Origin: Ceratodon purpureus
Lineage: Eukaryota; Streptophyta; Bryopsida; Pseudoditrichales; Ditrichaceae
Length of the DNA: 64,000 nt
NCBI GenBank assembly: GCA_014871385.1
Contig: CM026426.1
Location: forward strand, 40,891,579 to 40,955,578
Direction of reading: 5' to 3'
Of the stretch, positions 2,940 to 42,187 are shown in pieces. Within the stretch, counting starts at the first letter, position 1. Each line of letters starts with the position of its first letter. The position numbers and the translations under genes are program-made. The notes under the pieces were generated by a model that was not told the DNA's origin, searched no databases, and saw nothing but the letters and a program-made list of their open reading frames with translations.

Positions 2940-3459
2940 TGTAATGTGGAATTTGCTGACCGAGCATTTCCAACTGTGAAAGGGGACTCTGATCTGGAGG
3001 GATGAGGTGGAGGAACATAACCGCAGACCAAATGTCTAGTTACAGTGGTTGATATCACCGGTAATTAGTTACAACAGGTAGTGGGTAGTTACAAACAAAA
3101 CTTGTCTGGCGGCTGTTTCAGAGTAGTGGGTAGGTTTGATCGGAATGGAGAATACTTAAGGTTCACTCAACAGGGTGATTAGTTGGGTTAGTCATGGTGT
3201 AGGCAGCTCCGGAGAAATCCAACAGTACAGTGTGTACCGGTAGTGGCCTTATAGGTGCTTGTGAAAAGTTAAACTTATGAGTAAAGCTTGACAAGTTCAT
3301 GGGCAGATTGAGTGACTTGTGTGTAAAGAGGGCGGGGGAGTGCCGCATCTTGGGCTTTCTCTGCGAGTGTGCTCTCTGTGATTCCTCTGCGCTAGAGTTT
3401 TGTTGGAGATAAGTGAGGGATGTAGGGAAAAAGATGAAGAATCAGAGGGTTTGAGTGAC
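2940..3459 (+). repeat. 5' LTR of the gypsy element
   Basis: It begins TGTAATGTGGAATTTGCTG and matches the copy at 39712-40231 along its whole length. By eye there are about 17 differences in 520 bp, roughly 97% identity. The last bases are ambiguous because TTTCTTT follows in both copies. A 61-codon minus-strand ORF occurs in both LTRs (3163-3348 and 39935-40120). This is probably chance conservation through LTR identity rather than a gene. Confidence 0.92.
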
Positions 3460-3467
3460 TTTCTTTT

Positions 3468-5325: not shown

Positions 5326-5540
5326 GTGTCAACAATGGCAAGGCTGTGCATCTCACTGTAGAGATAGCAGGCCAAGAAGTAAGTGGTCAGGTGGATAGTG
5401 GGGCAACCACGTCAGTTCTAGCAGCGGACACAGTCCGAGAGCTTGGGATGATGAAAGAGGTGACTGGTACGGAACTCTATCGAGCAGCCTCAGGTGCAAT
5501 AGAAAAGGCACTAGGGAGGCTCAAGACGACTATGTTGGTC
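5326..5540 (+). pseudogene. First retropepsin domain, N-terminal part (split by the Mutator-like insertion)
   Basis: After a one-base frameshift near 5315-5325 the polyprotein resumes (SVNNGKAVHLTVEIAGQEV) and reaches the catalytic aspartate motif VDSGATTSVLA of an aspartic protease. It ends at 5540 in the middle of the domain. The insertion at 5541 follows a GTC codon, and the rest of the domain lies at 23310-23489 in the same phase. Retropepsins act as dimers to process the polyprotein. Confidence 0.88.
5532..5540 (+). repeat. 9-bp target site duplication, left copy
   Basis: ATGTTGGTC at 5532-5540 is repeated exactly at 23301-23309. The two copies bracket the 17,760-bp element. Nine bases is the typical Mutator-superfamily duplication length. 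Confidence 0.9.
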
Positions 5541-5619
5541 AGGACGAGACTTGTATGCGAGCGGTGAGCGGCGAGCGGAGAGCGGAGAGCAGAGATTTGG
5601 AGCGCAGAGAGCAGAGAAT
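5541..5619 (+). repeat. Left terminal inverted repeat of the Mutator-like element
   Basis: From ATGCGAGCGGTG (5554) the strand reads GAGCGG and GAGAGC units up to GCAGAGAATGG (about 5619). The reverse complement of 23222-23287 has the same string with few changes. The outermost about 13 bases match only weakly. Farther in, CCCTATAACC occurs in both arms (5738 and, as complement, about 23190). Confidence 0.83.
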
Positions 5620-7400
5620 GGTATTCTTAATCTAAAAATAGACTTATTTTTACTAAAATTAGAAACTAAAATTAGAAGATGTGAATATTTCAAGAATATT
5701 CTTGGAATATTTTTTTTTTAGTAAATAATATTAGCCCTATAACCGTCGACTTATTTGATAGTATAGTTGAAAAAAGCTATATTTTCAATCCTATTTCCGT
5801 GCATAAATTATGCTATAAAATAAATTGACAAAATATAAAATAAAACTATGCCTCATTTCCATCCTTATGTGTAAGATGAAAGTCGTTTATGAGTATAATG
5901 TCTGGGTTTCAAGGGCGCCAAGCACCTTCATCATGGATATTTAAGCTTTAACAATAGGCAGTCTCTTCCTATTTATTCATTGTTTTTTTGAAAGAAGTCT
6001 CAGTAGGAGCGGGCTACGGTTATGGAAGATGTCAGGGTTATTGCTGTCTAACTTGGTGACGTTGTTGGCCGATTTCAACCATATGTGGAGATTGAGCGGG
6101 AAGAAGAGGGCTGAGGCAAATGGGTGCAACCAAGGCCCAAGGGCTTAGTGTAATGTATGACGTGGATGTACGATTAGACATGAGAGGAGAGCCTTGAGCT
6201 GTAAAAGAGTCAAGTGGGATCGTGGTGCTTATTTCCAAGTTTTGTTTTTTGGACATTAAAAAACATTTTAAGACATGATTTCACCGCTTGGATTTTCAAT
6301 CCAACATTTATGTACATGCCGTTTTTACTATCATATAATAATCTTTTTTTTAACTCTGTAGCCTTTGTGTATGAATTTCAGCATACCTCCGTATGAAAAA
6401 TCAAGCATTTCTTTAGATATTAGAGGTCGTATGAGGATAAATGCATAGAAATTTCCTAATTTACATAGGAACAATAATTTGAAGAATCTCAAGTCAAATT
6501 TACTTTTGAAATTGATCATTTGGCTCAAGAAACTCTACAATCCCATTTTGCAAGGGAAAATTTAATTTTTTCAACTTTGAACATTATAATCTTGCAAATG
6601 ATAAGGATTTTGAATCTAAGATTTGGAGTAAATGTACATGTAAAGTAAGATACTCGATCCTACAATTATTTTCCCCTAAAATACATCAAAACTTGAAAAC
6701 TTATATCTTGTATTAAAAGGGGCCAGTTCAGAGGGTTTTTGGCAGTTTTGAGGCCTCTTGACTTTAGGGGTCAATGCAATAGCCATAGTAGAATAACAAT
6801 TTACCAAAGCAGCTCCAAGAGCTACAGTTGTAAGGATTAATCGGTCACCCAATTCCTAAAATCATAAAATACAATTATTACCTATTGCAACGAAAAAGAG
6901 TAAATAGAATGAAAGCGTAATGAAAATACAAACTAGAATCATTAATTGTTTGTTTAGGTCTAGAGATAAGTGTAATCAACAAATCTAAAGCTACTAAAAA
7001 CCCAGATACCACAAAATCCGCCAATCTCAATTAGACTCATACTACAAAGATTAGACTAAATGCTTCTGACACCATGTCAAGCTGTGTTGCTACGTTCTTA
7101 GTATGTATACACATAAATTAAAGAACGTATCATATTACAGTTGTTCAAAACAAGTAAAATTGAGACATCAAGTAAATAAGCTGGACTAATAACTGTATAT
7201 AATATCATACCTTTCATATCATATATTAACATAAAAGATTATGCCTTTTTTCTCCAACTATGTACCGACTGAGGCAAAGAAATCTTTAAGTACTCTATGA
7301 TTTCAGCATTTAATTTGTATCATGCGGAAACCAACCAAGAAATCATTTGAACATCACAACAATCTAAGTTGAAATGGATCAGAACCAAAAACACATAACA
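5620..7400. repeat. AT-rich left arm with a copy of an interspersed repeat
   Basis: No gene is recognisable. About 6250-6720 is a copy of a repeat family also seen at 19600-19950, 40245-40560 and 57830-58260. The most conserved part here reads ACTTTGAACATTATAATC at about 6573, followed by a GATAAGGATTTTGAATCTAA stretch. The rest is low-complexity AT-rich DNA. Confidence 0.5.
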
Positions 7401-8583
7401 CACAGACAAAACCTCCTGCATAGTAACCACACCGCCCAAAGGGAATGTAAAGCTCATCTAACCTAATATTTTATTTTATTTCTAAAGCCCATCAATACGC
7501 AGTACACACACACCTACACTCACATAGCACTACTCTTCATCCTCAGTTCCCACACCCTATTGCTAACTTCTCTCCAGGCTCCCAACTTCTCCTCTACGTG
7601 CAACAATCCTAAGCCAATGCTCAAAAACACCACTATCAAATCACACCAGCTACAAACGAAGTGCAGCATCCTTGCCATAAACTCAACCAACCTCCGAAAT
7701 AAACCCCGATTGTCTAGTAACCTAAAACTTATCAATAAAAAAACCACAAACCTCTCCCCTCACTGACCTGAAAGCTAACATTAAACTCAAACATAGAGGA
7801 CAAAAACCCTACTCAAAGATCAAGCAACCAAAATCCATCACCCAATCCAACTCTGAAACACAAAAACTTCATCAATTACCCAGACGATCCATGGATGATG
7901 CCACAATTACAGTGCACGTGTACCACGTTTGGCTTTCAGAATTGCTTGAAAATAATTTCCATGTTTAGGATATTGAACACCAATCTGCAACAGGAGCTTT
8001 TGCCCAAATGCGGCAGCCTGCATCTGCCACACTGCCTCCATGTCCTGTTTACCGGTATACTAAGGCCTCATTCACAATATCAGCACCTCCTCTCACCAAC
8101 GTCTGATGAGCAAATATATCCTGCACGTCCTCCAGGAGAATTGTTGCAATACAAAACAAACAGTGCAAGATCAACAGGATGGTCCCTAGTTCATACACAC
8201 TAGGTTATAGACTCTCCATGAAAGGACTGTCATGCAAAGGCTTCGCTACGAGGTCTAATCCAAGGGCAAAAAAAAATGTCAAGTGCTCGTTCTGCCGAAG
8301 GAGTGTTCGTCACCTGCTTGTCAAACCACGCTGACTACATCAGAAGCGCAGGTTTCACCATCCATCATATACCAACCTAGAGCTTGGACAAGCAAAAGCA
8401 AATAACCGAGCTCTATTAGAATCCTTATGATACTGCCAACACTTCATAAAACAAAAAAGTTCAAAAGGTTCGCTGAATAAAAATACAGTACACAGGACTA
8501 AGAAGAGAGTTAGAAAGAGCATGATTAAGCTAGCAACTAAGAAAGCACATAATTAGAGCTCTTTCTGGAATTTAAAATTTTAC
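7401..8583. other. Downstream part of captured DNA, no recognised product
   Basis: Short frames exist on both strands (for example 7520-7747 minus and 7895-8203 plus), but none has a family signature. On the minus strand the stretch about 8203-7910 contains possible exon-like segments with plausible splice borders. They could be 3' parts of the ARD capture or of another gene. Confidence 0.3.
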
Positions 8584-9950
8584 CTCACGGGATGCTCATC
8601 TTGACGACGATTGTATGGGGTCAAGATAGGTTCACCAATGAACAGCCTCATTGCCTGTCATAAATAATTCAGACTATGTTTAAGAACTCCAAGGAACAAC
8701 ATAGTTCCCGCGTCAAGTTATCACCGTCTAGTAACACATAACTATCCACATGAATCATGCCTAGAATAATTCTGAATTAACATGAATAGAGCCACGGACA
8801 GTTAGCCATGTCTTCCTTGAGGTAATTGCTCTCATCAAGAGTAAAGCGATGGTAACACCCTGCAGGCAACACAGTCATGTCTCCCTTCTGCACCCATATG
8901 CACCCATACGAACATCAAAGTAACCTGTTACACAACTTCAGTCATGAGTTTGGAATTATAGTACCTAGAAACAATTGTATCCATGGGCTTTCACAGATAG
9001 ATACGTCATAATCAGCTGTAGCTATAAATTGAAGTGCTCTAGAATAGTCTGTGGCTGATCGATCAGTATTGATATGTAGAAACAATCGAGCCTACTTAGT
9101 ACTTGCATTAAAATATGGACAGAACCAAAGTCACCACAAGTCATGGTAAATACACATGCAGCACTCAGAGCAGCACAGACATTGATCTATGATACTCACC
9201 ACTTCCATACATAGAGCATTGATCTTATTTCAAACAGAACAGCCACAATGCCCACTCCACCACCATTCCACCACACTCTCGTAACAATCCTCCAAACCAA
9301 AACCAATAAGCATGAAAACACCAAAACAACCAAATTACAAAACCTAATTCACACAAGACATCCAAACACGATTCAACTCCATACCCGTAAGTGCCAGCAC
9401 GCGTGGCTTCGTACTATGCCGCGTCCGGCGCCCCGCCACGCACCACAACGCCTGACTCTTCACTAATCATCACCAAAAACCTCCAATCGCAGAAATCAAC
9501 CTCTGATCTCACCTCCTGCACCCAAACCCTAGCTCCCTGGTGACTCACCAATCACCACAACCGCAATGCGAACTCCAGAATCGCAACCTCTCACCTAACC
9601 CCACCACAACAACCTCCCGCTCCTCCAACCCTAGCTCCAAACAATTCCCCCGATCACCTCCGCAACAGCATTGCAACCTCCACTCTCTCCCTCGACCACC
9701 CTCACCACCAACCGCCACATCATCATCACCACCACCTCCAACAACCTCCAGATCTCACCTCCGCTCCTCCAAACTCCAAACCCTAGCTCCAACCTCCTCT
9801 CCACTCTACTCCACTCCACATCGCCAGCTCCAATCACCCTTACCAGCAATGGCTGCAACAACAGTAACAACAACAACAAAAACAACATCACCAACAACAA
9901 TGCAACGTCCAATTGCAACGATGAATCTCACCTCGAAACTCTAGCTTTGA
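8584..9950 (-). pseudogene. Captured acireductone dioxygenase (ARD) gene fragment
   Basis: On the minus strand one exon starts after an AG acceptor at 8924. It reads YFDVR, is broken by a small duplication and frameshift, then reads [19 protein letters not shown], the cupin core of acireductone dioxygenase of the methionine salvage pathway. A second exon, 8584-8654, reads AMRLFIGEPILTPYNRRQDE between a good acceptor and donor. The donor of the first exon looks lost, and the metal-binding exon (HxH..E) was not found. About 9450-9950 is purine-rich on this strand with telo-box-like CTAGGGTTT stretches, as in plant 5' leaders. A broken genomic capture is the best reading. Confidence 0.8.
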
Positions 9951-10084
9951 AGCGCCATGGCGATCGCGTCCACAGCCATCGCATTATAGCCATTCAATTA
10001 AATCCAGAAATCATAATCTTCAATTTTGCTCGTATCCCATACTCGTTGGCATTGTCAGCAAACAGCTGCGGATATCCACCGTAA

Positions 10085-10877
10085 TCAGCACTCGAGATTT
10101 ATCACCTTGGTATACGCTGCAAATTTCAGCACCACAGAAACATCTAGAACATAATGATCCAGTGCAATTTTATAAATGATGATAAAAGATTATAGAAGCT
10201 GGAAGGAGGGAATTTTACACAGGTCTAGCTGTTGCAGCGATGGAGCGTGCTTCAGCGAGCTTCAGAGGCCGTCAAGTGATGCAATGCAGCAAACCATAAC
10301 AGCATTGATGTCATGTGCCCAGGCAGGACTGCAACTCACCAGGAAGGGCTGCTTGCTGCGGCACACTCGCTTTATGCATTTCAACCAGCTGTTGACATAT
10401 CGTAGAATACACTGAAATCTGCCGTCGCAATGTCTCCAGCTGCTCATCCGTCATCACCTGACCAACACTCCCCACAAATGCCCTCACAATCAGCAAAAAA
10501 CCGAAATAAACATAATCTTTCCAACATCCCCGTCACCGCCAGATCACAAAATCCATCCCTCCGCTGCCTCGCAACTGGTCAAAAAAATCATTGCAAGTAA
10601 ATGAGCCATGAACGAAAGCAATGCACAGCAATTCTCCCATAAATGCCACCGCACATCTCCGATCAATCCCAGTTTCCATTGCCATGACATGAATTCAAAA
10701 CCTCAAGGAAGGTAGGGTTCACCGCATGCTGATCTGCCCAGAGCCCCGCGTATACAGCGGCTGCGGCAACGACCTCTCCAGCGAAGGCCCCAGCACGAGG
10801 CCAGACCCAGGCTGCGCCTGCATAGACACCAGCCAGGAAAATCAACCAGCCAGGAAAATCAACCAGCCAGGACTTAC
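10085..10877. other. Downstream part of captured DNA with short direct repeats
   Basis: No gene is recognised. ATCAACCAGCCAGGA is repeated in tandem at 10841-10872, directly against the splice donor of the last TAD2-like exon. It recurs at 13321-13338 together with CATAGACACC. The motif may mark capture or rearrangement junctions. Confidence 0.4.
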
Positions 10878-12358
10878 CCTTCTGATTGCCGTTCTCATAG
10901 AAACCCTGGAATAAAGCCACTGCTTCATCAGCCATCAAACCACCCACACACTCAAATCCTCTGGTCTTTTGCACTTCATGTACTTCAGATTGATCGTGAC
11001 TGGAAATGAACATAAAAGCAACCATATAGTCAACCATAACTTTGTACAAATTGGAAAACAACGTAAAGTGAACATAACCAACTTGGTGAAGGAAGTACAG
11101 AGGCATCAACATGCTGTCTCAACCCACAAGGAGCCACATTTCCAACTGGCATACTTCGAGACATGCTTAATCGTTACGTGTTTTGAAAACTATTTTCAAT
11201 TGCTCCTAATAATCTTCGTTTCCAACATCATCTTCAATCGTTAACCTCCACTCCAGAGCCCCAGTTCAAATGCTATCTGTATTAACCAAGTTTCTGATGC
11301 ACCTCAAAAGAGAAGGGAATACCTCGAACCGCAAGGAGCACATCCATCAGTACGTATATCTAACACCGACCCGCATCCACCGAAGCGGTCGTTTCCACAT
11401 CCATAGTATACCTCCCGAAACCCTGTTACAAACAAGGCGAATCCATCACTTCTATTTTAGATATGCAACCACTCATTACCTGTTGTTTCAGACAAGAGTT
11501 CTAGATTAATGTTTAACCATAAAAATATGAAAGATATTTCTAGGGATTTGAGTGTCAAGCAACCCCAACGTCATCAAAAAGGTAAAATGAATATGAACCA
11601 AACTCGTTGACGGAAAACCAACTAATAGATGCTTGGGTCCAGAACTTTTGCAATTTGTTCCTAGCAAAACCAAGCACAAAATATGTACCTAGTAACGAGA
11701 GTGCCGATGCACACATGATGCAGGGTTCACAACTGACATACAAATCACATTGTTGAAACCCCCCAGTTGACACACTGTCACTATGAGCTGTCGAGGACTG
11801 ATGCCAAAGGCAGAGCACCATGTCGATAGCCTCCATTTCAGCATGTCTTGTTGCCTAGTATCCCACCACAACCATGTGCAAAATGGTCAGATATGAGGAG
11901 AAAGAAAAACACATGTCGCTCTTCTCACGCTAATTACAAATGTCTTATTTTTAGACTTCAAGTTTAATTAAGATTTAATTTTTGCCTTGGGGTACTGACC
12001 CGGACTATCACAGATTTAGGTTACTACCTTTAGATCCCACTCGAAGCACATTACTGAGTCGATATCTCATCGCACAGCATATCACAGAATGAGAGGTGGA
12101 CACCTGCAGCATGTGAACGACCGAGTAAACTACATGCAGGAACAGTAAACATACCCGACAGGCACCTCCAACCTTGCGAGTGCTCCCTTAGCCTGCGTCA
12201 AAAGTCACTACAGGTCACCCTGCTCAACCAAGCACAAAATTCTGTGACCAACCAGGCAAAGAGAAACCACTAAAACTCCTGTGAACAACCATTTGGCATA
12301 CCTCGGCAAAAGCAAGCTTCATGAAGTTCACCACTGAGTTGTCTGCTACTGTGGTCAT
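10878..12358 (-). pseudogene. TAD2: Captured tRNA-specific adenosine deaminase (TAD2/ADAT2-like) gene fragment
   Basis: Minus-strand exons with good splice borders follow the plant TAD2 order. 12302-12358 starts at an ATG (NFMKLAFAE). 12155-12192 reads AKGALARLEVPVG. A degraded segment ends near 12103. 11689-11854 reads ATRHAEMEAID and then CEPCIMCASALSLLG, holding the zinc ligands and the catalytic Glu (HAE and PCxxC). About 10878-10983 reads FECVGGLMADEAVALFQGFY. The enzyme makes inosine at tRNA position 34. The exon after VPVG is corrupt and the expected GCGS segment is missing, so this copy is not functional. Retained introns show DNA-level capture. Confidence 0.85.
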
Positions 12359-13394
12359 ACTTCTGCTCCCCAATCTGCATATAAATTTGTGAACAAATAG
12401 AATGTAATTTCTCAATGGCCTACGACTGCATTACAGGTTTATTTTGTGAAGTGTGAGATTGTGCGAGTCCCATCTTTGTCACAATAAACAAAGTTAACGA
12501 GCAGCCGGACAGAGTGACACAATCGTGAAACGGAGCTTAGGTGATACAAAAACTTTGCCGAGCAAAGCATTTCCAGACTGCGTCTCCTTCTCTGCCAATT
12601 CAAGTGAGATGAAGTCCACTTCCCCACCCCGATTGCAGTTGTGCACCCTCATTATGAGTGATCAGACATTCACTCTTAATACTAAACCCTAAACCTCTGG
12701 GTATTGAAAGCGAAGAAAATTTCCGAGAGAAAAATCTCAGAAGGTGTAGAACTACAAAAGTACCCACATGATCACCAGTACCCGGTCACCACGTTACACA
12801 ACAAAAGGTTTCGACAAATCGAAGATGACCCAATATTCTTCCATCACTAGAAGCGCGAGTTCCACCCCTTACAAAAGATAATCATTCAGACCCAACGCTT
12901 GTGAGCTGCGCAAAGACCAAAACAATGCACGTAACAACAACACCATCAAGGAATCTGTACCCTTTCAGCTGAAGGAAGTGATCGTCCTCCAAATCCTGCT
13001 TGGTCGTGCCCTCCAATTCCTTGCACACGGCATTGTCGCCAATTGTCAACAAATCCTGAATCCTTGCTCACAACAAAACCCAAGCATCCGATGCGATTGC
13101 CACAACCCAGGCGTGGCAATTCACCCACTCTCTCCCAGGAAACCAGGAAACGGTTCTCCAGATCACAACCTGTCACTTCACTTATGCAATGCTACGACCT
13201 TCCTCACACTCACTCTCTCGATCTCTGCTTCATTTCCACTCGCTCTCTATCATCTGCTTCCCAGTTTTCGTGCCCCGATCCCTGATTCCCGCGCACTTCA
13301 ACCAGAAACCAGTACCCAGGAAATCAACCAGCCAGGACAACCAGACCCCATAGACACCGGGATCAAATGCATCCAATACCGCACATCGAGCACT
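12359..13394. other. Upstream part of captured DNA, no recognised product
   Basis: Probably the 5' flank of the captured TAD2 gene, plus unrelated sequence. A 194-codon plus-strand frame (12978-13562) runs into the repeat array and is low in recognisable features. I do not call it a gene. Confidence 0.3.
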
Positions 13395-15089
13395 GCCGTT
13401 GACGGCAGTGGTCCGAGGCCCCATTCAAGTCCCTTCACCGGGGTACTAGTTGGTGCCCAAAGCACTGCCGTTAACGGCAGTGCTGCCCAAAGCACCGGCA
13501 GTGGTCAGGCCCCATTCAAGCCACTTCACCGTGGGTATTGGCCACTTCACCGTGGGTACTAGCCACTTCATCGTGGGTACTAGTTGCAGCCCAGATCACT
13601 ACCATTGCCGGCAGTGGTCTGATACTCTATTCAAGACACTTCATTGTGAGCACAAAAAGAAACTCTATTCCAAAAAAACCATTGCGGGTGTTGGTAAGGA
13701 TTTGAAACAGGCAACTCCATTCAGACTACTCTCGTTACCGGTAGTGGTTTAAAAAAGACATGTGCATTTTGAATTTACTTTTATGTGAATCTAAATCCTT
13801 TTTGTACTTCTCTTTTTTCTGAATTGATCTACTTAAAAGTTTGTTTGTGTAATTTATTTGAATCTTGTATTTGTTAATGTTTTAGATGGTCCTTAAGACA
13901 AAATCAATCCTATCTTGAATAATTTAAATTGGAGTCAAGTCCAATGCGGTTAACGGCATGGGTCCAAGAGATACACTTAAGTTTTGGATTAGCACACTGC
14001 AAATTGATGTTTCATAAATATGTACTTTCTCTAAAATGATTAATCTGAAATTTATTCAAGTAACTATTTTTCTATTTGTTCTCTTTTTAGTTCCGATAAG
14101 AGATGTTTGAAAGAAATGAGGATTAATCTTATATTGTTAAATTGCAATTAAGACCTTCGCTGGGACTTGAATTAGTCAAAAAATGAACATCTGGATTTTG
14201 CATGTTACTTTTTCAAGCTAGTGCTCACAACGGAAATTGTCAAAAGGGGCATTTTCTGTTTTTTGATTTGACCTTTTCAAACCACTGTCGGCAATGGCAG
14301 TGGTCCAAAGGGACAATTTTTATTTTTGAATTTGACCTTTTCAGAACACTGCCAACAATGGTAGTGGTCCAAAGGGCCATTTTGGTTTTTGAATTAGACC
14401 CCTTCAAACCACTGCAAGCAACGGCGGCGGTCTAAAGGGGAACATTTGGTTTTTGAATGTGACCACTTCAAACCACTGCCCGTAGCGGCAGTACTCGAAA
14501 AGGACATTTTTGGTTTTTGAATTTGACCTTTTCAGACCATTGCCGTTGACGGCAGTGTTCCGAAAGGGAACATTTGGTTTTTGAAATTGACCCGTTGAAA
14601 CCAATGCTGACAACGGCAGTGGTCAAAAAAGACATTTTGGTTTTTGAATTTGACCCCTTGAAACCACCGCCGTCAACGGTAGTGGTCCAAAGGGGCATTT
14701 TGGTTTTTGAATTTGACCCATTGACACCACTACCGTCAACGGCAGTGGTTAAAGGGCCATTTTGGTTTTTGAATTCGACCCTTTCAAACCACTGCCGTCA
14801 ACAGCAATGGTTTCAAAGGGACATTTGATTTTTTGAAATGATTTCAAATAGTTGTACTATTCCTTTTACTTCCTCTAAAATGATACAGAAATGTGTTAGC
14901 AAACTTGTTTTTGTATATTTTTTAAAAGTTACAAGTGGGCTCTTTGCATGGTTGTCATAATGGACCGACCGTCCGTTAGTCCGTTAGTCCGTCATGGTGA
15001 CAAGACAGACCCCCGTGTCCGTCACATAAGGGCGTTGACCAGTTGACTCACGGTAAGGGTAAAACGGGATTACCCTATGCTGAATTAGT

Positions 15090-15395
15090 GCGGGCGCGAG
15101 CGGGTGGGCGAAAGCAGGACGACGGGCGCGAGCATCCGCGCGAACGGGATGTCACGGGCGCGCGCAGGAGTGCGGGAGAGCGAGGGCGCGTGCGTCCTTT
15201 CGGCCGCGCGCGTGCGCGAGCTAACGGGCGCGAGCGTCACTGCGGGCGCGATCCAGTTGACGGTCGCGAGCACACTTATTGGGCGCGGTCATGTGGGCGC
15301 GAGCCTGGATCGGGCGCGCACAGTATTGGGCGCGTGCGTTCGGGCGAGTGCGCTGCATCGGGCGCCGACGGTTGGGCGCGAGCGTTGCAGGTTAG
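15090..15395 (+). repeat. GC-rich irregular array of GGGCGCGAGC-type words
   Basis: Inside the hAT, GGGCGCGAGC and close variants (GGGCGCGTGC, GGGCGCGCGC) recur many times at irregular spacing, for example near 15090, 15128, 15225, 15245 and 15294. ORFs here (15043-15543) are only the Arg/Ala/Gly-rich reading of the repeat. The stretch contrasts with the AT-rich surroundings. A few copies (GGCGCGAGC) also lie near the right end at 16254-16262. Confidence 0.7.
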
Positions 15396-15576
15396 TAGGG
15401 AAAGAGCACCATCTGGCAAAATGACAAGAGAGGGCATGTATTTCAGGAGAGGGCAATTGGGAAGTGCAATGTTTATTGAAAAGTATTGCAAAATTGTGGC
15501 AGTAAATCACTTACAAAAAATGTCCCCTCTTATGGAGAACTGAGAATATCACATTGTTGTCACTACTTGCCTACTT

Positions 15577-16233
15577 CTAAATATGTTTGCGATAACAACA
15601 CTCTCGGATCTGGAAATTGTAGGGAGGGGCTGTTAGAGTAGCGTGGACCAACTGCAAGGTGGAGCGGTTTTTGGGATCGGTATTTGTGAGCTCCTTCAAC
15701 GCCACTGCAAATCTAGCCTTCTCCGCTGCATCCTTGAAAAGGTCGAAGTCGTCCTTGTCCTTCCAAATCATATTTGCTACCACTCCAACCGAGTAGGCAT
15801 CGGCAGCCTGCGTATATAGCTTGGCCCTATGGGTGCGGAAGGCCTTAACACGGTCATGTGTTTCCATGGGCATATCGGCCTGCTTCTCGATGTTACGGTT
15901 CAGAGTACCCTCACCGATATTTGAATTAAACTTGTTCAGAAAATTCTGCAGGCAATCCCCATTCCACCAAAGCGTGTAGGCTTCCATCGTCGAGTCATTG
16001 ACCGCAAAAAACTTAATAACGCCGGGATTGTCAATCCTGCAAATCATGGCTTCTATTGATGTCTCGTACCGCTTCTGGGTCTCGTCAGGAGCCTTGGACG
16101 TCTTCCCCGCAAAGACACAAGTCTCAGGTATGGTTTCCATGCCAACAATACGTAATTTTCGGACATTACCATACCCGCCTTCCCTTATGCCTGACAGCGG
16201 AACCAACTTGACCCCTCTTGGAACTGAGACCAC
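15577..16233 (-). pseudogene. Captured protein-kinase-domain fragment
   Basis: This 218-codon ORF starts with a glycine-rich loop (GIREGGYGNVRKL) and an AGK that may hold the ATP-binding lysine. It continues NPGVIKFFAVND, as in kinase subdomain V, and later has DAYSVGVVANMIW, as in subdomain IX, and DPKNRSTL, as in subdomain XI. The catalytic HRD and DFG motifs are absent. The frame jumps from the N-lobe to the C-lobe without a stop, as if the active-site part had been deleted or spliced out. It is inactive as a kinase if translated. Its open frame is notable for a captured fragment. Confidence 0.72.
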
Positions 16234-17837
16234 TGCTTACCACAAGTAGCGAACAGGCGCGAGCAGGCGCAAAGATGCGCGCGGACATGACGACGGGCGC
16301 CACCCATGGTAAACAGTAGTAAACTGTGAGGACAGTAATTTTGCTCGCGGTCGGGAGCCCGTCCGATAAGCGTCCGTCCGATAACCGTCCGTCACGTTCG
16401 TCACGTGACTAGACGACAATTTTATGGCCCGTCCGTCTATTATGACAACCCTGGCTCTTTGTACCAAAAGAAGTTGCTTTGGCAACGTTTTTACTTGCTC
16501 CAAGACCCATGCAAGCCTTAGCACATGTCTAAAAGAGATTTTTAAATTTTAGAATGAAATTCTAGAGACTACTGCCGGCACCGGGAGGGGTTTGAAATGG
16601 AACATTGAAATTATGAAATTGACCTATTCAGACCATTGTTGGCACTAGCAATGATCTAAAAGGAGAATTTTAAATGATTAAATTGACGCTCTACACCACT
16701 GCCGGCAACAGCAATGGTCCTAAGGAGACCATTTGGTTTTTGAATTTGACCCCTTTAAATCAATGCCAACACGGGTAGTGGTCTAAAGTGGAACACTTGA
16801 TTTTCAATTTTAATCACTTGAAACCACTGCCGGCAATGGCAATGGTCCAAAAGTGGCATTTTCTACTTTTGAATTTGAACCTTCAAACCATTGCAAGCAA
16901 CGGCGGCGGTCTAAAGGGGAACATTTGGTTTTTGAATGTGACCACTTCAAACCACTGCCAGTAACAACAGTGGTTTATGAGGGAACATTAAAAAATTTAA
17001 ATTGATGTATTTAGACCATTGCTGGCACTAATAGTAGTATAAAAAAAAAATTGAACTTTGAACTTTATTCTTATATAGATATTGATACAACTTAATTTTT
17101 TTAGAATGGAGCTTCGTTTGTCTCAAGCAGCCTTCAGAGTAATAAACAAAGACCATATTGGAAAGTTTTTAATACAATTAAGTTTTGAAGTGCTTCATTT
17201 GAAGGGAACTAAAGGTTATGTAAATGACAATTTCTACTCATACAAAATGAAACAGAAGTCAAATGTACCCATTGATACCCGTGCAATTGACAGAAGTGGT
17301 TTGGATTGCAATTTAACATGTTTAAAATGAAGCATTTTTGTTCATGTCTAAAGCATCGCATTTGTAAAACAAGGCTTCTTAAACCACTGCCGTTGCCGAT
17401 AGTGGTCTGGGCCGCTACCAAAGTTCATTCCTAATGGCGCTTTGTAGACCACTGCTGTTACCGGCTATGGTTCCAACTTGTTAATTTAAACATCAAATGT
17501 TCATCTTGAAACCACTGTTGTTGGTGGTAATGGTTTTGACTGCAAATTTTAAAATTCAGAGTTTTTTCCTTTACAATATCATGGTTGTAAATTGTGGTTT
17601 TAAAGGTAAAATTCTTGATTGAAAAGTGATGGAACGGGTGACAAGGGATTAAAATATAAGCGTTGTTAGTGGAGGTTGTGTCTTCATCGGGTCATACAAA
17701 ATTAAATGGACCCTCTCATACCATTAGCGGCAACGATAGTGGTCTGAAAGCACCAACTTAGACCATTGCTCGCATCGGCAATGGTCTAGGCTACAAATGC
17801 ATAGTGGACTTGAGGTAGTGAGTTTGTTTCTAAGCTT

Positions 17838-18705
17838 TTAGTTCCAATTCGTAGCTACGGCGACCGCTGCTCTGTGCGCTCTGGCCACCTCCGCGCCTGG
17901 CACTGCCATTGCTTCTTAGGGTGCTTGTCACCAAGGTATAACCTCATGTCAAATTCCTGTTATCTGTGAATCCCAAAGTCAATTTGAAGGATAGCATTTC
18001 CAATCTCAACTACTATGCATGCATGTTTGCAAGCTTAAGCCAAAGCGTGCATCTTCATTGAGGTCGGTCTGTACCTATAGTTGAGTAATATCCTTGCAGA
18101 ATTTCATCCTCTAGATGTAGACTTACAATACATACTAGGGCATTTGCATCTCAAAATTTATAGCACTGTTGTAGGCTCTAGGAGCAATGACGCTAGGATC
18201 TCAACAATTGATCTATCAGCCACTATTTATTGATTAGAGAGCCAATATTTTATATCTTCAAGAAGGGTGCTAGGTGCAAGTACAGTTTGTTGCAAGTAAC
18301 AATGTCTACGCTCTTTTTGTCATTAGTAGCAAATTGTCTCATCAGTGTACCCTTTGAGAAGCAAAAGGTTCATGAAACTATTGCATTAGTCCATGATGAG
18401 CACTTAGGTTGCAGTCTCTAAAATGCCTACATGATGTAGGAACTAGAATCTTCACTGATTGTTACCCTCGATAATTGATATTTTGGTTTTTCATATATTG
18501 ATGTTGTTTGTTGCAGGTTTCCAAGGGCAACATTGAACCACCAGTGGGGCTCAGAGACTAGGATGGCAAACTTGTGAACATGGACAAGTTAAAGGACAAG
18601 TCGTTGTTGCAATGCTACTACCATGCCAATGAGACTTCAAGATGCATTAAGCAAGCATGTGCATTCCGCGATTCATATGAGAAGTTCAAAGAGGGCTGGT
18701 GCTAA
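17838..18705 (+). pseudogene. Captured peroxiredoxin Q (PrxQ) gene fragment
   Basis: After a TTGCAG acceptor the exon from 18517 reads VSKGNIEPPVGLRD, then TAG (18559-18561) where the family has Gln, then DGKLVNMDKL, and finally CIKQACAFRDSYEKFKEG. This is the plastid thiol peroxidase PrxQ around its peroxidatic Cys (family TPGCTKQACAFRDS). The Thr-Pro-Gly before the Cys is changed to Thr-Ser-Arg. One extra G near 18694 shifts the frame to a TAA at 18703. About 17845-17925 can be read as an Ala-rich end of a transit peptide with a donor near 17936. The copy is dead. Confidence 0.78.
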
Positions 18706-20040
18706 TTTGGGTACTAATTTGAATCTAATTTGCGCATGATGCTGCTATTAATGTTTTCTGTCAATGGTGGATTATTTGTAGGGATTATTAATGTTTGTGA
18801 TTTTGCATGTAGGTTGAGCAAAAGACGGCAATGGTAAGTAAGTGAAGGGGATTTTTAGTGTGAGGAGCAGAGCGATGCCATTGGAGCAGAGCGATGGCAA
18901 TGAACAGGCAGTTGACGAGGTGTTGATTAGCGTCTTGTTTAGTAATCATTTTTTTGAATTTTGGGTTTGCTTTTTTTTTTTGCATGGTTAGTAAGAGGCT
19001 ATTGGGATGCTTTACGTGTTAGGATTGGTTTAATCTCTAAAAATCCAGGAAAGCCGAAATGGATTTTTGCTGTTTTGGGCAGCCAAGATGAAGGGGTTAA
19101 ACTTCATATTTTTGCCTATGATTTTTACTGGATGCTCCCTATATTGCAAAGTGTATGTGGTAAAAGTTTCAAAGCCAAATTCTAATTTCAAGACCTTCAT
19201 CTAGAATATTTAGGTTTCAAGTCCATAATGGGCAGCTTAAAATTAGGGTTTTTTTTTTAAAAAAAATTCTTGAAATATTTTCATAACCAAACCACCACTC
19301 AAATTCCAAAGAGACCCAAGTCAAAAAATAAACCAGTTTTACAAGGGCAGCCTCCAAAAATTACAAAGCCAAGCTTCAAATTTTTGAATTATTTCTTTCA
19401 AGATTCGTCAAAATTTGAGATTTTGAAAATTTTCAAAAATAATTTCGTCCAAAACTTAAAATGTATAAAGGCACCTAACCACCGTTTAGATTTTTCTGAA
19501 ACCAAGTATACGTAACGTCATACATGATTTACGATATCAACGTTTTTAGACCCACTTCTAGAAATTAATTTTTGTGAAGGTCCTAAGAAAGGAATAAGTC
19601 TCTAAAATTTTGCATGGAGGTACCCAACTTGATTACCTACATGGAAAAAAATATGAGCAAAATGTTTGGGATAATGAACATCAAGTCCCCATTTTCACCA
19701 TTTACCCTATGTCATTCGGTTGATACCCAAAAAAACTTTTGCTGCAACTTTGATCATTATAATCTCACGAATGGTAAACATCCAACGGTTCAAAATCTCA
19801 TCAGTACTTCTAAAGAGGGTAAAGTAAAAAATCTTACGGTTAGATGTCTAAAAAAGGAAAAAAATTGGTCCATACCGTCATTCCCACAAAGCGGTCAAAA
19901 TGACAATTTTGGAACTTGGAGCTTCCAAAAACGGCTGGATTTTTAGGGGTTAAATTAGCATTTGAGTTGCTATCTATTGAAGGATCATTTTGAGCTAGTA
20001 ACTTGGATTGTTCGGAAACGACATTGCCTATATTCGCCTT
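18706..20040. repeat. AT-rich stretch with another copy of the interspersed repeat
   Basis: About 19600-19950 resembles 6250-6720, 40245-40560 and 57830-58260, sharing CTTTGATCATTATAATCTCA and the AATGGTAA that follows. A 110-codon ORF (19614-19946) lies wholly in this repeat. I do not treat it as a gene. The rest shows nothing I can name. Confidence 0.5.
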
Positions 20041-20537
20041 AGAGAACTATTTTCTTCTTTGATAGGCAACGTCATATTCTCCATGGACAATCGTCAAAGT
20101 TGTTTTTAACATTGCCTAGGCTTGTAGCTAAAGGTGAAAAGCATATGTTGTTGGAAGTGGCCTGTAGTGATCAAGTTGATAAGAATGGGATCGATGTGTT
20201 GAGTAACGCCTTCGACAACGCGATCTCTAGGGATGGACAAATAGTTGAGTTGTTTGTGAGAAGATTTCTTAGGGTAAATTCTAGAGATGAGAATGGCGGC
20301 ATGGATTGCTCCATCACCAATTAGGGGGAGCTCAAAATCACGATGTCGTTGAACACTGCAGGCAGTACTCAACCTTCTCCTGTCTCACTAAGGAGCAATT
20401 TATTTTTTTGAGAATGTTTTTCCTCCGTGGTCTCTCCGCAAGTTTCCTAATCAGCTGGACTACACTAATAGTCTCCTCCTTGGAAGGTTGTGAGTTACTG
20501 GCACATTTGACTAGAAATGTAGTTGGTAGCCTAGATT

Positions 20538-21007
20538 CTATAGACTGTTTTGAACATCAGGTGATGCTTTCAGAGAACTTGTCTCCTTGTCCGAAAAGAG
20601 GGAGATGACTGGCGTTACATCAGGAGTATCCAAGCCAAGCTGGACTTTAACCTTCACATCACGAGGCAGAGGAGTCTGAATAGTACAAGTAGATGAACAA
20701 CGAGGAGTTAGAATCTCAGTGGACGCCTGCATTTGGGACTTTGTGAGACCATAAACTCTGTATCTACCGGGAAATAGGTTCCAGACCTGTTATCGTCATT
20801 GTCTTTCTCAGAAACCTGATCAAGCGTATGTGTAATCTCATTGGTGTCATCATCATATATCTCTTCCTCAATACTAACAGTTTCTTCTCTGAAGTGAAAC
20901 CTAAGATTGAAGCGTTGCGCTATCACAGTTGCCAACCCATCCTCATCTACACGTACTGTAAGTGGAATACCAACACCATGAGCTCTGAGCACAGCCATGC
21001 CTAACAC
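20538..21007 (-). pseudogene. Unrecognised acidic ORF fragments
   Basis: A 99-codon frame (20708-21007) is acidic in its middle (EEEIYDDDTNEITHTLDQ) and ends near a second frame (20538-20732, PLPRDVKVKVQLGLDTPD) that could be its continuation after a frameshift. I recognise no family. They may be another captured gene or old transposon coding sequence. Confidence 0.35.
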
Positions 21008-21049
21008 TCTGTCTGCAGGGATGTGAGTAGAGAGCTCGGAGTGTGACTA

Positions 21050-22179
21050 GACAAATTAGCGAATACAGATTGAGAGGATTAGTGCATTGTCCGCGCCCTA
21101 CTTATTAGATGTTTAGAACTCATTCGTTAACTTTGTAGCACAAAATCCTTCCAAGTTTGGATGTAAAGTTAATTCAAATAATAGTATTAGTCAATTAAGG
21201 AGCCGTCATTTTCAGTTAGATCTTGGGTGCACCGTGCAAAGCTGTAAATTTAATGTATTAATAACATTTGCATCATGGTTGTAATTTGATTTGATGACTA
21301 CTCGTATTGTTTTAGATCGTGCCATCATTTGAAGGGACAATATCTACTACTGGTACCAGATTTCGAAGTATTTGATTATCAATACATTTTTTAAACACCA
21401 ACTTTAATTCAAAATATACTTATATTTAGTTGTAAACAATATTAGTTTTGAAATAAATACCTTGGTGGACAATAATTTCTAGACTGGCATTTCGGGTGTA
21501 TAAGCTGAAGGAAGTTCTAAAAGATCTTAAACATGTGACATGTTTTCTATTTTCAATTTTAACCATCTAATTCAATGTTCATGGCCTTATGAAGGAAACA
21601 CATAACATGTGCCAATGTCATTCTGAAATTCCTCATAAAAAATTTACAGAATTATGGACCCTATATAATGTCAAACCACATTAGTCAGGAAGTTGGTTCT
21701 TTTTGATAATCATAGCATGAAATTAAAAACAATAACCTCAACATATAATTACAATTGACAACAACAAAATGTTCAAAAAATATATAGAAGTATAATCATT
21801 TTTGCCATTGCGGAAATATTAGCTGTAAATAAGTCCACTGTGATGAATTTTTGGCTCTACCATTCATACTTCAAGAGGAGTAAATGAGGTCATACTAATG
21901 TTGTTTTCATATAGTCAATGTCCGCCATCCATCTACTGAGGCCAGCCTCAAGCACACTGGATTCACTCAACACCCATAATGCCAATGTTTATTAGCCACA
22001 AGAAAAAACATAACATATTTCTATATAAGTGAAGGTACTCCACTTCCCGCATGTCATACCGAGGAGTACTCTTACATATAGCACATGGATAAACATCTAA
22101 TTGTTACGCATGTCCACACACGGGGCCTACATATCATCTCGGTAAAGGAAGCTAACTCCGGAACCAAAGATATAGTCCT
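21050..22179. other. AT-rich stretch without recognisable features
   Basis: Part of the right arm of the Mutator-like element. I see no ORF above background and no clear repeat. Confidence 0.45.
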
Positions 22180-23300
22180 CTACGGCGCACAGACACTCCA
22201 TGAGTTTCCTATTTCTGCCACCAAACTGTTGTTTAGATAACCTTGAGGAGCGCGTGACTGAACAACTGGATTCACGACGCCGGTGGAGGCCACAAGAAAC
22301 GCGATAAGGAACTCTGACATGATGCTGATGAGCTCAATGGTACAGGTCACTGTCCACCGCCATTCCCCATCCAAATCCAAGAGACATGCGACGTGCCTAA
22401 AGGGCAGAAGGTCCATACCTCGAATCGAGGCCCGCTCCACCTTCACCAGCCATGGCCGTAGCTCCTACAGACTGGCCGGTGCCTTGGGGGCTAAACCCAC
22501 AACCGCTCTCGTCCTCCTCGATGTTGCATTACGAACCTTTGGCATTTCACCTCAGAATTGGTTGTTGTTGCCGACCGTTTCAAGCTAGGCTGCAGAATTA
22601 TCACCCCAACGTCGTACTCTACCCCTACATACAGCACGGAATGGCGGAGACTGTATCACTCTGCTAAGACGCCACCCACAAACGAGCTGCAAAACAAAGA
22701 ATGGCCTCCTCGTATGCTCACGTGCTGTAACGTGATGAGAATCATCTACTTGTATCACTCAAATGAAGAGGATTCGCTGCGTGGGAGGACGGAGAAATCT
22801 TCGATGAAGACAAATGCTTTGACAAGGAATATCTTGGTTTCAACAGTACCATTATTATACACGAACTTTGAAATATTCCAGGAAGTTTTCAGACCTTGTT
22901 TCCTTGACATTTTGTGAAATTTGTTTTTCCTATAATTAATTACATAATCCTATGCAAGAATTACTTGTTTGATCTAAAAAACGTAACGCTCGAACATTGT
23001 ATCTAGATCCAACCCTAAACCACATCTAACGGAATGTATGCATGACGTCATCATAACATCAGCCCTAATTTGTACCTCTTAAAAGAAACATAATAACTGA
23101 AGCAATTTTAACCCTGAAATCCACGGAATTACATACCTTTTCTAAAAAAAGTAACCAAAAAATGCCTTATTTTAGTATTTTTCCGAGGTTATAGGGTACA
23201 CTTTACTATTGAAAATATGGTTAAAGGTCCATTCTCTGCTCTCCATTTTCTGCTCTCCGCTCTCCGCTCGCCGATCACCGCTCGCATGCTAACTTTCCCC
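22180..23300. repeat. Right arm of the Mutator-like element, shared with 1454-2548
   Basis: This arm is homologous in the same orientation to 1454-2548. It includes the outer terminal repeat (23222-23300). The shared arm contains short frames on both strands, none of which has a recognisable domain. Sharing the whole arm between two elements shows that they belong to one family and shows how much of the end is family-specific. Confidence 0.8.
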
Positions 23301-23309
23301 ATGTTGGTC
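23301..23309 (+). repeat. 9-bp target site duplication, right copy
   Basis: ATGTTGGTC, identical to 5532-5540. The next base, 23310, starts the codon that continues the gypsy protease. Confidence 0.9.
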
Positions 23310-24994: not shown

Positions 24995-26182
24995 CTACTT
25001 GGAGTTGCTAATGGTCACCAGGAAACCACATGGGCCCCTCTTCAAAAAATTCACCGTGTCCCCTAGCTTCAACTTGTTGAGCATGCAGAATTCGAACCAG
25101 CCTGAACTGAAGAAGCAGAAGCTTTGCCGCCCTGTCTCGTGGAGTGCACTCTTCACGCAGCTTTCCTTCAGAGGGCCTTCGAGTATATAGACTTGTCCAT
25201 TGAACTTCTCTTTGCCGTGTTGCCTCCAATACAGTGTTGGGATGTCTTGTGTAGAAGACAGCCCAAGAGAGTGAATGTTAGAGTAGGCTAACTGTACAGT
25301 TACTCCGGCAAACAGGGGAGAGGGGACGAGGGGGCAAGGCAATGGCATCAGATGCATACAATAAAAAAAAATAAAAACACAGAGAAATGTGGGACAGATG
25401 CTTACAATTCGAGCGCATTTGTTGGGGCAAACATGTGAAGCACGGAGAGTCTTTTGGAACTGCACAGACGGCCTGAACGGGCGTGATGGACCAGCACCAT
25501 CGTTAAGGGCTGTGGGGGTCTTGTGGCCTACCTTCTTTTTTGGGCTCCGCTTGTGGATGGTGGCGACAAGGCAGTTCCCATTCACCCACTCTAGGATCAG
25601 TAGGTCGCCGATGCCGATCTTCTGGTCCGCACAGAATTTCCCAAACCCCAGGCCGATGCTGTAAGCCAAGAGCTTGGATCACGATGCTGAGCCCACGCGC
25701 CGAAGTTTCACGGGCCACTCGACTGGCTTGGTGATGGAGGTAACTAGGGCGATGTCAAGAGTCTCGGGCCAGCCGCACTTGGAGGTGAACAACTTTGGGA
25801 CCGCCTGCACCAACATTGACCATCCATCCCGCAAATCAGAGCCAGATGGGAACCAAGCGAAAATTGCAGCAAAATCTGCGATCACGAAGGTGGACAAAAG
25901 GCTTACCAGGACGCGAAGGTCGTTGCGTGACTCGATGCGTTGGGCGAAGTGTAAGGCGCGGCATTCTTTGAGCTCCCAAATCACCTGGTCCTGCAGGTTA
26001 TCCAACACCTCCCCTCCTTCGATGTCAGCCATGGCGAATTTGAGATAGAAACAGAGTTGAGCAGGGAACGGGAGGAGTAAGATGGAGGAGAGACACAGAG
26101 GGGGGCGATGCATGCAACAAGCGAGGAAGGTAATGGGGGGACACACGGACCGGGAGAGGGGATTCAATATAAACCTACACAC
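24995..26182 (-). pseudogene. Captured B3 DNA-binding domain gene (two B3 domains, broken)
   Basis: A minus-strand frame starts near MADIEGGEVLDNL. It reaches a B3 start (VPKLFTSKCGWPETLDIALV, then EWPVKLRR), meets a TGA at 25679-25681, and continues in the same frame as GLGFGKFCADQKIGIGDLLI, the end of that B3 domain. After a likely intron (donor GTAAGC near 25407, acceptor near 25300) a second B3 segment reads GWFEFCMLNKLKLGDTVNF. B3 proteins are plant transcription factors of the ARF/VRN1/REM type. The single TGA may come from CGA by one C-to-T change. Its place inside a piggyBac suggests capture. Confidence 0.65.
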
Positions 26183-39711: not shown

Positions 39712-40231
39712 TGTAACGTGGAATTTGCTGACTGAGCATTTCCAACTGTGAAAGGGGAGTCTGATCTGGAGGGATGAGGTGGAGGAACATAACCGCAGGC
39801 CAAATGTCTAGTTACAGTGGTTGATATCACCGGTAATTAGTTACAACAGGTAGTGGGTAGTTACAAACAAAACTTGTCTGGCGGCTGTTTCAGAGTAGTG
39901 GGTAGGTTTGATCGGAATGGAGAATACTTAAGGTTCACTCAACAGGGTGATTAGTTGGGTTAGTCATGGTGTAGGCAGCTCCGGAGAAATCCAACAGTAC
40001 ACTGTATACCGGCAGTGGCCTTATAGGTGCTTGTGAAAAGTTAAACTTATGAGTAAAGCTTGACAAGTTCATGGGCAGATTGAGTGACTTGTGTGTAAAG
40101 AGGGGGGGAGAGTGCCGCATCTTGGGCTTTCTCTGCGACCGTGCTCTCTGTGATTCCGCTGCACTAGAGTTTTGTTGGAGATAAGCGAGGGATGTAGGGA
40201 AAAAGCTGAAGAGTCAGAGGATTTGAGTGAC
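39712..40231 (+). repeat. 3' LTR of the gypsy element
   Basis: About 97% identical to 2940-3459. The downstream flank (TTTCTTTATAAATACC) shares TTTC with the left flank, in keeping with a 4-5 bp target duplication. Confidence 0.92.
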
Positions 40232-42187
40232 TTTCTTTATAAATACCACATTCCTATATGTGAAAAAAATAATATAGACATAGTCGTAACTCACCTAGAA
40301 ACAAGTATTGAAGTGCCTCAATTAAAAAGAAACTCTTAAAATTTGGTTTTTTTTTTTTTTGCTCACAAAACACTGCAAACCTATTATGCAGCAAGAGAAA
40401 CAACATTTTTTAACTTTTAACATTATGATCTCACGAATAGTAAGGAATTTGAATCTAAGACTTAAGGTACATATACATATACAAATAAGATAACAGATTG
40501 TAAATTTACAAACTTGTGCGAAGAATTTTGGAAAATGAAATGTCTCGACTAATTAGATCAACAATGTTTAAAATATGCACATGCTATATTAACCCGTAAA
40601 GGACAATTGTCCTGGAATGGATTTTTTTGAATTTCATGCTGTTAATTGCGATGTCAATTTTAAAAACTTGTTTTTGAAATATTTTGGGAATGTATGCCAT
40701 ACAATAACTTTGAGGAAATTCAATGTTTTTTTCAATACGACATTTAATAAAAAGTTATGGTAACTGAAGTTGAATTTATTGTTCTGAAGGCAATTTGGGC
40801 AGTCATACTAAATACATTTGTCACCTCTGAGATTATTTCTATAAATATTTAATGTTGTCATCTTTGAGATTTCTCCGAATAAACTTCTTTCCATAGAAAA
40901 CGTTCACTCCACAATGATCAAAGTATTAGAATAACTTCATTTTTCCTTCATAAAAAATTAGATTTTTTATTTTTTTAGGTTTCTTCTTTTTTTCACTTAA
41001 AGGATAGAAATCACTCTTTCCTTTGGCCGTTTAGATTGGGACTTTATGGATTAATGGAATTTCCAGAAAAGAAATATGAATTACCATTCTTTTCTATTCA
41101 GCTTAATTAAAATATTATTTTCAACATGCTTCACTTGTTTTTTGTATGTAATTTTTTTTTTAATGAAATTAGCTAAGTTAGTCATCTTTGTCATGCACCA
41201 AAATCCATAATGAAAAAAACCTAAAAAAAACAATTAAAAGTGTGTCAACCTAGGAAGAAACTCTATCAAAAAAGTTTGTTTTTAAATTTCAACCGAATTA
41301 CTCTTCTAATTTTTACACTCGATTATGATGAAATTCATTGAGCTATCTACTACAATAATCTAATTGAAGAACTTACCGTTACAATCAGAATGTTATGATT
41401 CTTTAACCATTCATACTTTATACAATAGAAATGACAGTTTTGGAACATTTCTTGATGAAACATAGTCAATGAACTTTAGGGATTAACCAAGCTATATGGA
41501 AAAGAAAACCTAGTATTTTGCAATATAACATTATACCATAATTGTCACAAATTCTTCATATAAATACCTCATATAAATTTCTTCGTCTCTCGAGAAGGTA
41601 CCTCTCGAGAAGGTACCGCATAAGCATTTTCTTCTAACCCTACACATTGTTTTTGTTGAATCATCAAGTGCTGGGCCCTCCCTTATGCTGTTCATGTATT
41701 TCTTCACAGAACTTTTTCCACCATTTTTCTTAATTACATTGCAACCATGCCTTTTGTCACCACTGTACGAATCAGTACTAACTATCATTTTTTCATGACA
41801 TGTCACGCATATCATGTATTGTAATACCAATTTCAAACATGAGATTGTAACACTAAATTCTAAACAGTTCAACAAACACTCATATTGGAACTTGGATCTT
41901 GACGTTCATAGTTGGAGAATTACAGCATGCATCTTCTAGAAGAATTGCATATATTTTGGAGTTGTTCAATTATCAAAAATATACTATGTTATCTACAGGT
42001 TAGATAAAGTGATTCAATAACAAAGGAGCATACCTTGCCACAATATACATTAATTTAGACAACCCATGCTTCAGTGCTATTCATGACCATCCCGACTTAA
42101 ACATCACATGCCGTGATCAGAGTTCCCATCACCATGGACGACAAGAAAGTAACTAATATATAAATTATGCTATGAAACATAAAGAAT
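40232..42187. other. AT-rich intergenic DNA between the gypsy and the ligase gene
   Basis: 40245-40560 is the right fragment of the interspersed repeat interrupted by the gypsy (ACATTATGATCTCACGAATA at about 40420). The rest is AT-rich with poly-T/A runs. At about 41590-41618 a 17-bp unit (CTCGAGAAGGTACCTCT) is repeated in tandem. A 114-codon minus ORF (41531-41875, CVTCHEKMIVSTDSYSGDK) has paired cysteines but no known family. It may be a fragment of a zinc-binding protein. Confidence 0.4.

Follow-up and report, generated by a model that had tools for sequence, protein, structure and literature searches.

A Pack-MULE-like element on the V chromosome of Ceratodon purpureus

A 64,000-nucleotide stretch of the genome of the moss Ceratodon purpureus (the window; C6:40891579-40955578 in assembly G000, 362 Mb) contains a 17.8-kb element, here named E1, that is inserted in the protease gene of a gypsy retrotransposon (Table 1). 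C numbers denote contig numbers rather than names of chromosomes. C6 is the V sex chromosome and bears the annotated C. purpureus protein KC19_VG094700, KC19 being presumably the male isolate R40. E1 carries intron-containing fragments of genes for an acireductone dioxygenase (ARD), a TAD2-type tRNA adenosine deaminase and peroxiredoxin Q (PrxQ), together with a tandem array and a nested hAT transposon. A sequence-only reading of the window had described it as a Pack-MULE-like element, that is, one resembling Mutator-like elements (MULEs) that carry host gene fragments, and this description is borne out by its ends, its flanking duplications and the donors of its cargo.

The left terminus of E1 was found in four other copies (E2-E5) and the right terminus in three of them (E3-E5), the family ends being GGACGAGACTTG/GGGGAAAGTTAGC. 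Past the inverted repeat, the two arms of E1 diverge. Because the comparison of copies sets the start of E1 at GGACGAG (5542), the best reading of its target-site duplication is either 10 bp containing one mismatch (ATGTTGGTCA/ATGTTGGTCG) or 9 exact bases. Of the borders first proposed, ATGTTGGTC does stand at both sides, while the start moves from 5541 to 5542. A third ATGTTGGTC in the window, at 33224, is unrelated to the element. The proposed in-frame rejoining of the host gypsy was also recovered: the flanks are continuous across a retroviral-type protease, computed with the 9 extra bases (three codons) retained, which leaves the frame unaffected. A related arm, earlier placed at 1454-2548 and taken as the sign of a family, spans 1499-2547 and belongs to a second, partial element with one end only; 835/1019 aligned bases (82%) are identical to the right arm of E1, with 53 gap positions.

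Table 1 Features of E1 and its host site (positions in the window)
Feature	Position	Strand	Remarks
Whole element E1, MULE-like, apparently non-autonomous	5542..23300	+	17,759 bp; termini common to other copies, ATGTTGGTC flanks
Left target-site duplication	5532..5540	+	ATGTTGGTC; 10th base A/G mismatched
Right target-site duplication	23301..23309	+	ATGTTGGTC
Left terminal inverted repeat	5542..5611	+	GAGCGGA tandem units
Right terminal inverted repeat	23233..23300	-	56 bp at 91% to left end
5' long terminal repeat (LTR) of host gypsy	2940..3466	+	510/527 identical to 3' LTR
3' LTR of host gypsy	39712..40238	+	
Right arm matching the second, partial element	22258..23299	+	82% of aligned bases
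ARD fragment, exon pieces and introns	8472..9211	-	donor C2:10883352-10884007 and slightly leftward, 91%
Stretch exchanged in E3 for HAD hydrolase gene	8567..9228		1,879 bp in E3; limits uncertain by shared join bases
Filler at TAD2 left join	10824..10870		47 bp; parts match sequence at right join
TAD2-type tRNA adenosine deaminase fragment	10871..13340	-	private to E1 among five copies; donors mainly C2:23.30-23.61 Mb
Degenerate tandem array	13373..17760		period 64 bp; palindromic core like ACTGCCGTTGACGGCAGTG; hAT-interrupted, limits approximate
Nested hAT	14947..16453		8-bp duplication GCTCTTTG; private to E1 among five copies
Protein-kinase-like open frame inside hAT	15577..16236	-	P0001 and P0002, 90% over 38%; P0003, 50% over 64%
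PrxQ fragment (5' leader, part of exon 1, intron, exon 2)	17810..18702	+	donor C7:16982101-16983200(-)
Nested insertion	19037..19947		carried by E1, E3 and, for its first part, E2; E4 and E5 lack it

Copies of the family differ in cargo

A genome search with the left end gave at least 40 matches; since this is the number scored of 1435 candidates, copy counts for the family are lower bounds. Four close copies were fetched, E2 on C7, E3 on C3, and E4 and E5 on C6, and their alignment to E1 established the family. Their identity to E1 is 86-94% across the array stretch beginning at 13341 and about 92-97% elsewhere. The copies have common termini and internal order and occupy different sites, with lengths of about 12.1 kb (E5), 13.0 kb (E4), 15.8 kb (E3) and 17.8 kb (E1). 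The start reads GGACGAGACTTGTATG in E1, E3, E4 and E5, preceded by A in E1 and E3, and GGACAAGACTTG in E2. Among more diverged relatives, L007 and L008 start with GGACGAGACTTGTATG in other flanks and L006 starts with AGGAGGAGACTTG, while a further locus (L048, C3:8517773) matches E1 from 9230 onward at 80-85%. All four copies with both ends are flanked by 10-bp target duplications, perfect in E3 (GTGGGAACAA) and E4 (TGGACAAGGT) and with one mismatch in E1 (ATGTTGGTC(A/G)) and E5 (A(G/A)GGGGCATT, 9/10). E2 breaks off at the equivalent of 19236, adjoining a hAT-like start; its right end was not found, with no further element match up to the contig end.

The stretch 10824-13340 (TAD2) and the hAT are absent from all four of E2-E5, 19037-19947 is absent from E4 and E5, and E3 differs at 8567-9228. 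In 5,410 aligned columns from three blocks common to the five copies, 45 sites split E4 and E5 from E1, E2 and E3, and all other two-by-three splits total 12. ARD occurs on both sides of this split, and TAD2 and the HAD hydrolase DNA of E3 in one copy each. E1 is not a single captured bundle; its cargo is layered, with later additions of 2.5 kb (TAD2), 1.5 kb (hAT) and 0.9 kb (19037-19947). The gene fragments and hAT listed in the sequence-only reading are all present, but TAD2 and the hAT are private to E1 and do not belong to the shared element.

Donors for ARD, TAD2 and PrxQ, and for HAD in E3, lie elsewhere in the same genome. Those of the three E1 fragments are at C2:10.88 Mb, C2:23.3-23.6 Mb and C7:16.98 Mb, so the parent genes are separate, as had been supposed, and a colinear host locus for the three was rejected. 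For all four genes the match to the donors extends through the non-coding sequence that separates the exons, indicating that introns were retained and that the cargo was taken as DNA.

ARD is replaced by a HAD hydrolase gene in E3

The ARD fragment matched Pfam PF03079 (E = 4.7e-7 for one piece, 5.2e-12 for the joined pieces) and is shortened and frame-broken in E1 relative to the donor reading. Eight genome matches comprised four full ones (E1, E2, E4, E5), the donor and three partial ones. The left limit at 8472 is provisional because only 6 donor bases were seen to its left; at the right join, 17 bp stand between donor-like and common element sequence. In E3, about 660 bp with most of ARD are lost and DNA of a HAD hydrolase gene is in their place. 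This DNA is 99.1% identical to its sole donor, C9:8612206-8614095 (1,890 columns, of which 6 are mismatches and 11 are gap positions). The joined HAD exons are matched over 66% of their length, at 96% identity, by the Ceratodon protein M758_8G090100. A 95-bp ARD stub persists beside HAD (91.6% to the ARD donor, E = 1.6e-36), from which it follows that HAD replaced ARD in E3; with ARD also in E1, E2, E4 and E5, it is the older cargo that was overwritten.

At the left HAD join, element CTCTTT is followed by CT common with the donor and then by donor sequence. At the right join, TTCAAAC (7 bp) is common to donor and element; the chance of sharing at least 7 bp at a random join is 3.8e-4 under equal base frequencies. 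The HAD joins in E3 had no target duplication, inverted repeats or internal termini.

A third candidate exchange at C6:60750570 (E6; L046, L054) was not counted. There the backbone breaks inside an ARD exon and runs into serine hydroxymethyltransferase exons (Pfam 1.7e-20; PDB 4.8e-25), and a rearrangement beside that gene is as likely as an exchange, because the 5.2 kb past the join contain neither left backbone nor element end.

TAD2 was gained in E1

The TAD2 fragment matched PF00383 (9.5e-8) and, with its exons joined, tRNA-specific adenosine deaminase 2 in the PDB (1.2e-28). Since E2-E5 lack the insert, E1 is the only one of the five copies to have gained it. Its donors are up to 96% identical to the insert; 335-345 bp of them are missing between 11965 and 11984, where the expected third exon would fall. 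The matches on C2 lie mostly at 23.30-23.61 Mb, with others at 16.2 and 11.69 Mb, and those on C10 at one place. Against the joined exons, nine named Ceratodon proteins gave matches of 68-77%.

TAD2 is usually a low-copy housekeeping gene. It was found at many places and in both orientations within 300 kb of C2:23.30-23.61 Mb (L022-L027, L030-L032, L034-L038, L040), with further places at C2:16.2, C2:11.7 and C10:11.9 Mb.

At the left TAD2 join, the filler stands between backbone GCCTGCAT and donor GACTTACC. Copies of a 17-base motif that also occurs at the insert's right end lie within the filler, whose longest exact match to the next 4 kb is 17 bases, at that same end (when the filler was shuffled 200 times, the mean was 8.9 and the maximum 13). 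Together with the adjoining CAT the filler begins CATAGACACC, a sequence that E1 contains at the right join too, where E2-E4 have CATGGACACC and E5 has CATGGATACC. The right join reads ACAACCCAGCC in the donor L031, GCATCCCAGACC in the empty copies and ACAACCAGACC in E1. Neither join has a duplication or terminal inverted repeat (TIR), and TAD2 was rejected as a nested transposon.

HAD or TAD2 might first have been captured in another copy and moved by recombination or gene conversion, for which the copies are similar enough. Full-length matches to the HAD query were confined to E3 and the C9 donor (12 matches, 9/9 candidates scored), and matches to the TAD2 query to E1 and the places on C2 and C10, which were partly checked for element ends (25 matches, 13/13 scored). 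Such an origin is accordingly very improbable.

PrxQ is probably the oldest cargo

The PrxQ fragment matched NCBIfam PRK09437.1 (4.6e-8) and Pfam AhpC-TSA (1e-5), both below curated cut-offs, as expected for a 62-aa piece. It is 84% (107/127) and 72% (569/793) identical to its donor, whose start codon is ACG in the element. The genome search returned 13 rows: two for the donor, one on C12 outside the exons, and the rest for nine other places, one of them in two rows. These nine are E1-E5, two places at most 13 kb from the left ends L007 and L008, and two more outside the end check. Being the most diverged and a widely spread cargo, PrxQ is probably the oldest; a lost or unseen closer donor is another possibility.

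Template switching as the likely route of cargo gain

Neither recent gain, TAD2 in E1 or HAD in E3, has a target duplication. Their joins suggest template switching in gap repair, since joins without duplication but with shared bases and filler match the traces expected of it in the available text of PMC8277862. We place at roughly 0.8 the probability that the copies form a MULE-like family, apparently non-autonomous, whose members take their cargo along when they jump and gain or replace it through break repair that switches template to unrelated host genes. Such breaks within an element would perhaps arise at excision, during replication or at a fragile site. The filler may stem from a polymerase-theta kind of end joining. 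A MULE transposase would presumably act in trans, and jumping would amplify whichever cargo is aboard. That the moss family is a serially reloaded carrier, its breaks filled by template switching onto host genes and its cargo both gained and overwritten, we consider somewhat better than an even chance.

Two other routes were weighed against these joins. Nested transposon insertion, each with its own ends and target duplication, is true for the hAT (8-bp duplication, site unoccupied in 4/4 copies) and probable for 19037-19947. As the source of the gene cargo it is most improbable, because the TAD2 and HAD joins have neither duplication nor inverted repeats and HAD came with a loss of about 660 bp of element. 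Fusion of neighbouring element insertions, trapping the DNA between them, has been published for Pack-CACTA and other Pack-TYPE elements (PMC8903248 and PMC13317346, in their available parts). It could still account for the oldest cargo, PrxQ and possibly ARD; as a general explanation it is quite improbable, given that E3 and E1 each present one backbone broken at a single internal point, with no internal termini at the HAD and TAD2 joins.

Several points count against template switching within a MULE-like family. Both joins are resolved for no more than two gains. For TAD2, the best match differs between the two halves of the insert, each half pointing to another member of the donor cluster. 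At the right TAD2 join, donor and empty copies share exactly only CC (2 bp) in E1; both have CCCAG where one C is missing from E1, which makes a longer overlap a mere possibility. Since 16% of random joins should share at least 2 bp, the weight of the evidence lies solely with the 7-bp overlap and the filler. With regard to class, the 56-bp, 91% inverted repeat is short for a MULE, and no transposase or autonomous partner was tied to the element ends, no genome search aimed at transposases having been made.

The MULE class of the family

The evidence supports that E1 works like a Pack-MULE and that the family is Pack-MULE-like. Other plant superfamilies usually make target duplications of other lengths. 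The available text of PMC6446971 gives 8-11 bp for MULEs, some of which lack TIRs, and the duplications in this family are 10 bp in 4/4 copies with both ends. Pack-MULE-like is a fitting label for the 9-10 bp duplications and the inverted repeats, on which MULE membership rests; descent from MULEs is unproven, because no autonomous partner was identified. The element has 60 open frames of at least 70 aa; ten pieces of it were scanned, and none matched a transposase. Membership of another TIR superfamily, or a foldback-like element with duplications of about 10 bp, would agree with an inverted repeat that is strong over only about 56 bp, with the tandem 7-bp units and with the lack of a transposase link; given the duplication lengths, it appears rather unlikely.

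The window also contains a degenerate gene at 52882-56265, in several open pieces, with matches to the MULE transposase (PF10551, 1.1e-3) and SWIM (3.3e-3) domains, both below curated cut-offs. This MULE/SWIM gene (52.8-56.2 kb) was rejected as a partner of the family: its four pieces match neither the compared loci nor other parts of the window, and its surroundings contain no family ends.

Other parts of E1 and its neighbours

The hairpin array of the sequence-only reading has a few palindromic cores but is mainly a degenerate tandem array. Three 24-mers with at least 10/12 self-complementary pairs occur in 13341-17850, compared with a mean of 0.15 and a maximum of 1 in 100 single-base shuffles. 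CAGGG-type ends are a motif of the hAT family, and the ends of the nested hAT, CATGGTTGTCATAAT and, on the opposite strand, CAGGGTTGTCATAAT, are of this type; the assignment was made from the ends and the duplication. Close proteins of its kinase-like frame are annotated on the Ceratodon U and V, and the cluster P0001 stands for 95 member sequences; the hAT may have spread a captured kinase piece. We read 19037-19947 as a TTAA-type insertion. E3 (L012) has a further TTAA-bounded insertion with inverted CCCCTAAAG ends at about 8625-9480 of the fetched stretch, near the position of the hAT in E1. A Pfam scan of the frames 20043-20324 and 20708-21046 and of the right arm gave nothing above cut-off.

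Between the gypsy halves lie a piggyBac-type transposase (32173-33519, minus strand; PF13843, 9.8e-55) and a piece of a B3 DNA-binding domain (24998-25678, minus strand; PF02362, 1.5e-9), which is possibly another captured host fragment. A host-type gene with a HECT ubiquitin-ligase piece (44375-46012, minus strand; PF00632, 2.9e-5) adjoins the transposon nest; it may be part of a UPL3-like gene over 42.6-51.4 kb.

Comparison with known systems

Single rice Pack-MULEs may hold pieces of several genes. With the present family, Pack-MULE-like elements that are large and multi-gene are recorded in a moss and on a UV sex chromosome; a literature search, with most subscription journals outside its coverage, found no publication titled on moss Pack-MULEs. 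Two acquisitions are legible to the base, and a single assembly supplies their donors, their unfilled states and the order in which they came; this makes the family a testable system for whether capture needs transposition. If the proposed route is true, this would be a plant family that displays gap filling through the donor and the states before and after in one genome.

Rice Pack-MULEs are non-autonomous MULE-type elements with host gene fragments (PMC13317346), and a benchmarking set of 2776 rice TIR Pack-MULEs has widths of 300-15,000 bp (PMC8903248), as given in the available parts of both sources. By comparison, E1 measures 17.8 kb and E3-E5 12-16 kb, and cargo differs among copies of one family. 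The tomato PM-ZIBP is likewise a Pack-MULE family of multiple copies, and its acquired fragment has been assigned to a donor gene; tomato Pack-MULEs are commonest at 1.0-1.2 kb, and the available part of that report describes no cargo replacement for PM-ZIBP (PMC3310237). Pack-CACTA and other Pack-TYPE elements resemble the moss family as TIR elements with host coding DNA and stepwise insertion differences (PMC8903248, available text), but the route proposed for them is fusion of neighbouring insertions, of which the moss joins bear no signs.

Among animal Pack-TIRs, attributed to gap filling or FoSTeST, 190 (67.6%) have microhomology at one or more joins, of 1-36 bp with a median of 2 bp (PMC8277862, available part). 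Those elements belong to other superfamilies, whereas the moss cases are two gains in one amplified plant family, HAD having a 7-bp overlap and TAD2 a filler. Acquisition of genes by Pack-MULEs has been called not yet understood or perplexing in the accessible passages of PMC3310237 and PMC8277862. Gap filling is proven with the Drosophila P element, and its use for plant Pack-MULEs was considered worth exploring (PMC8277862); rice MULEs were suggested to acquire sequence by DNA repair or by conversion through invasion (PMC4858842). As these sources, in the parts available, already raise it, the mechanism is not new as an idea; what is added here is plant cases with both the donor and the unfilled states.

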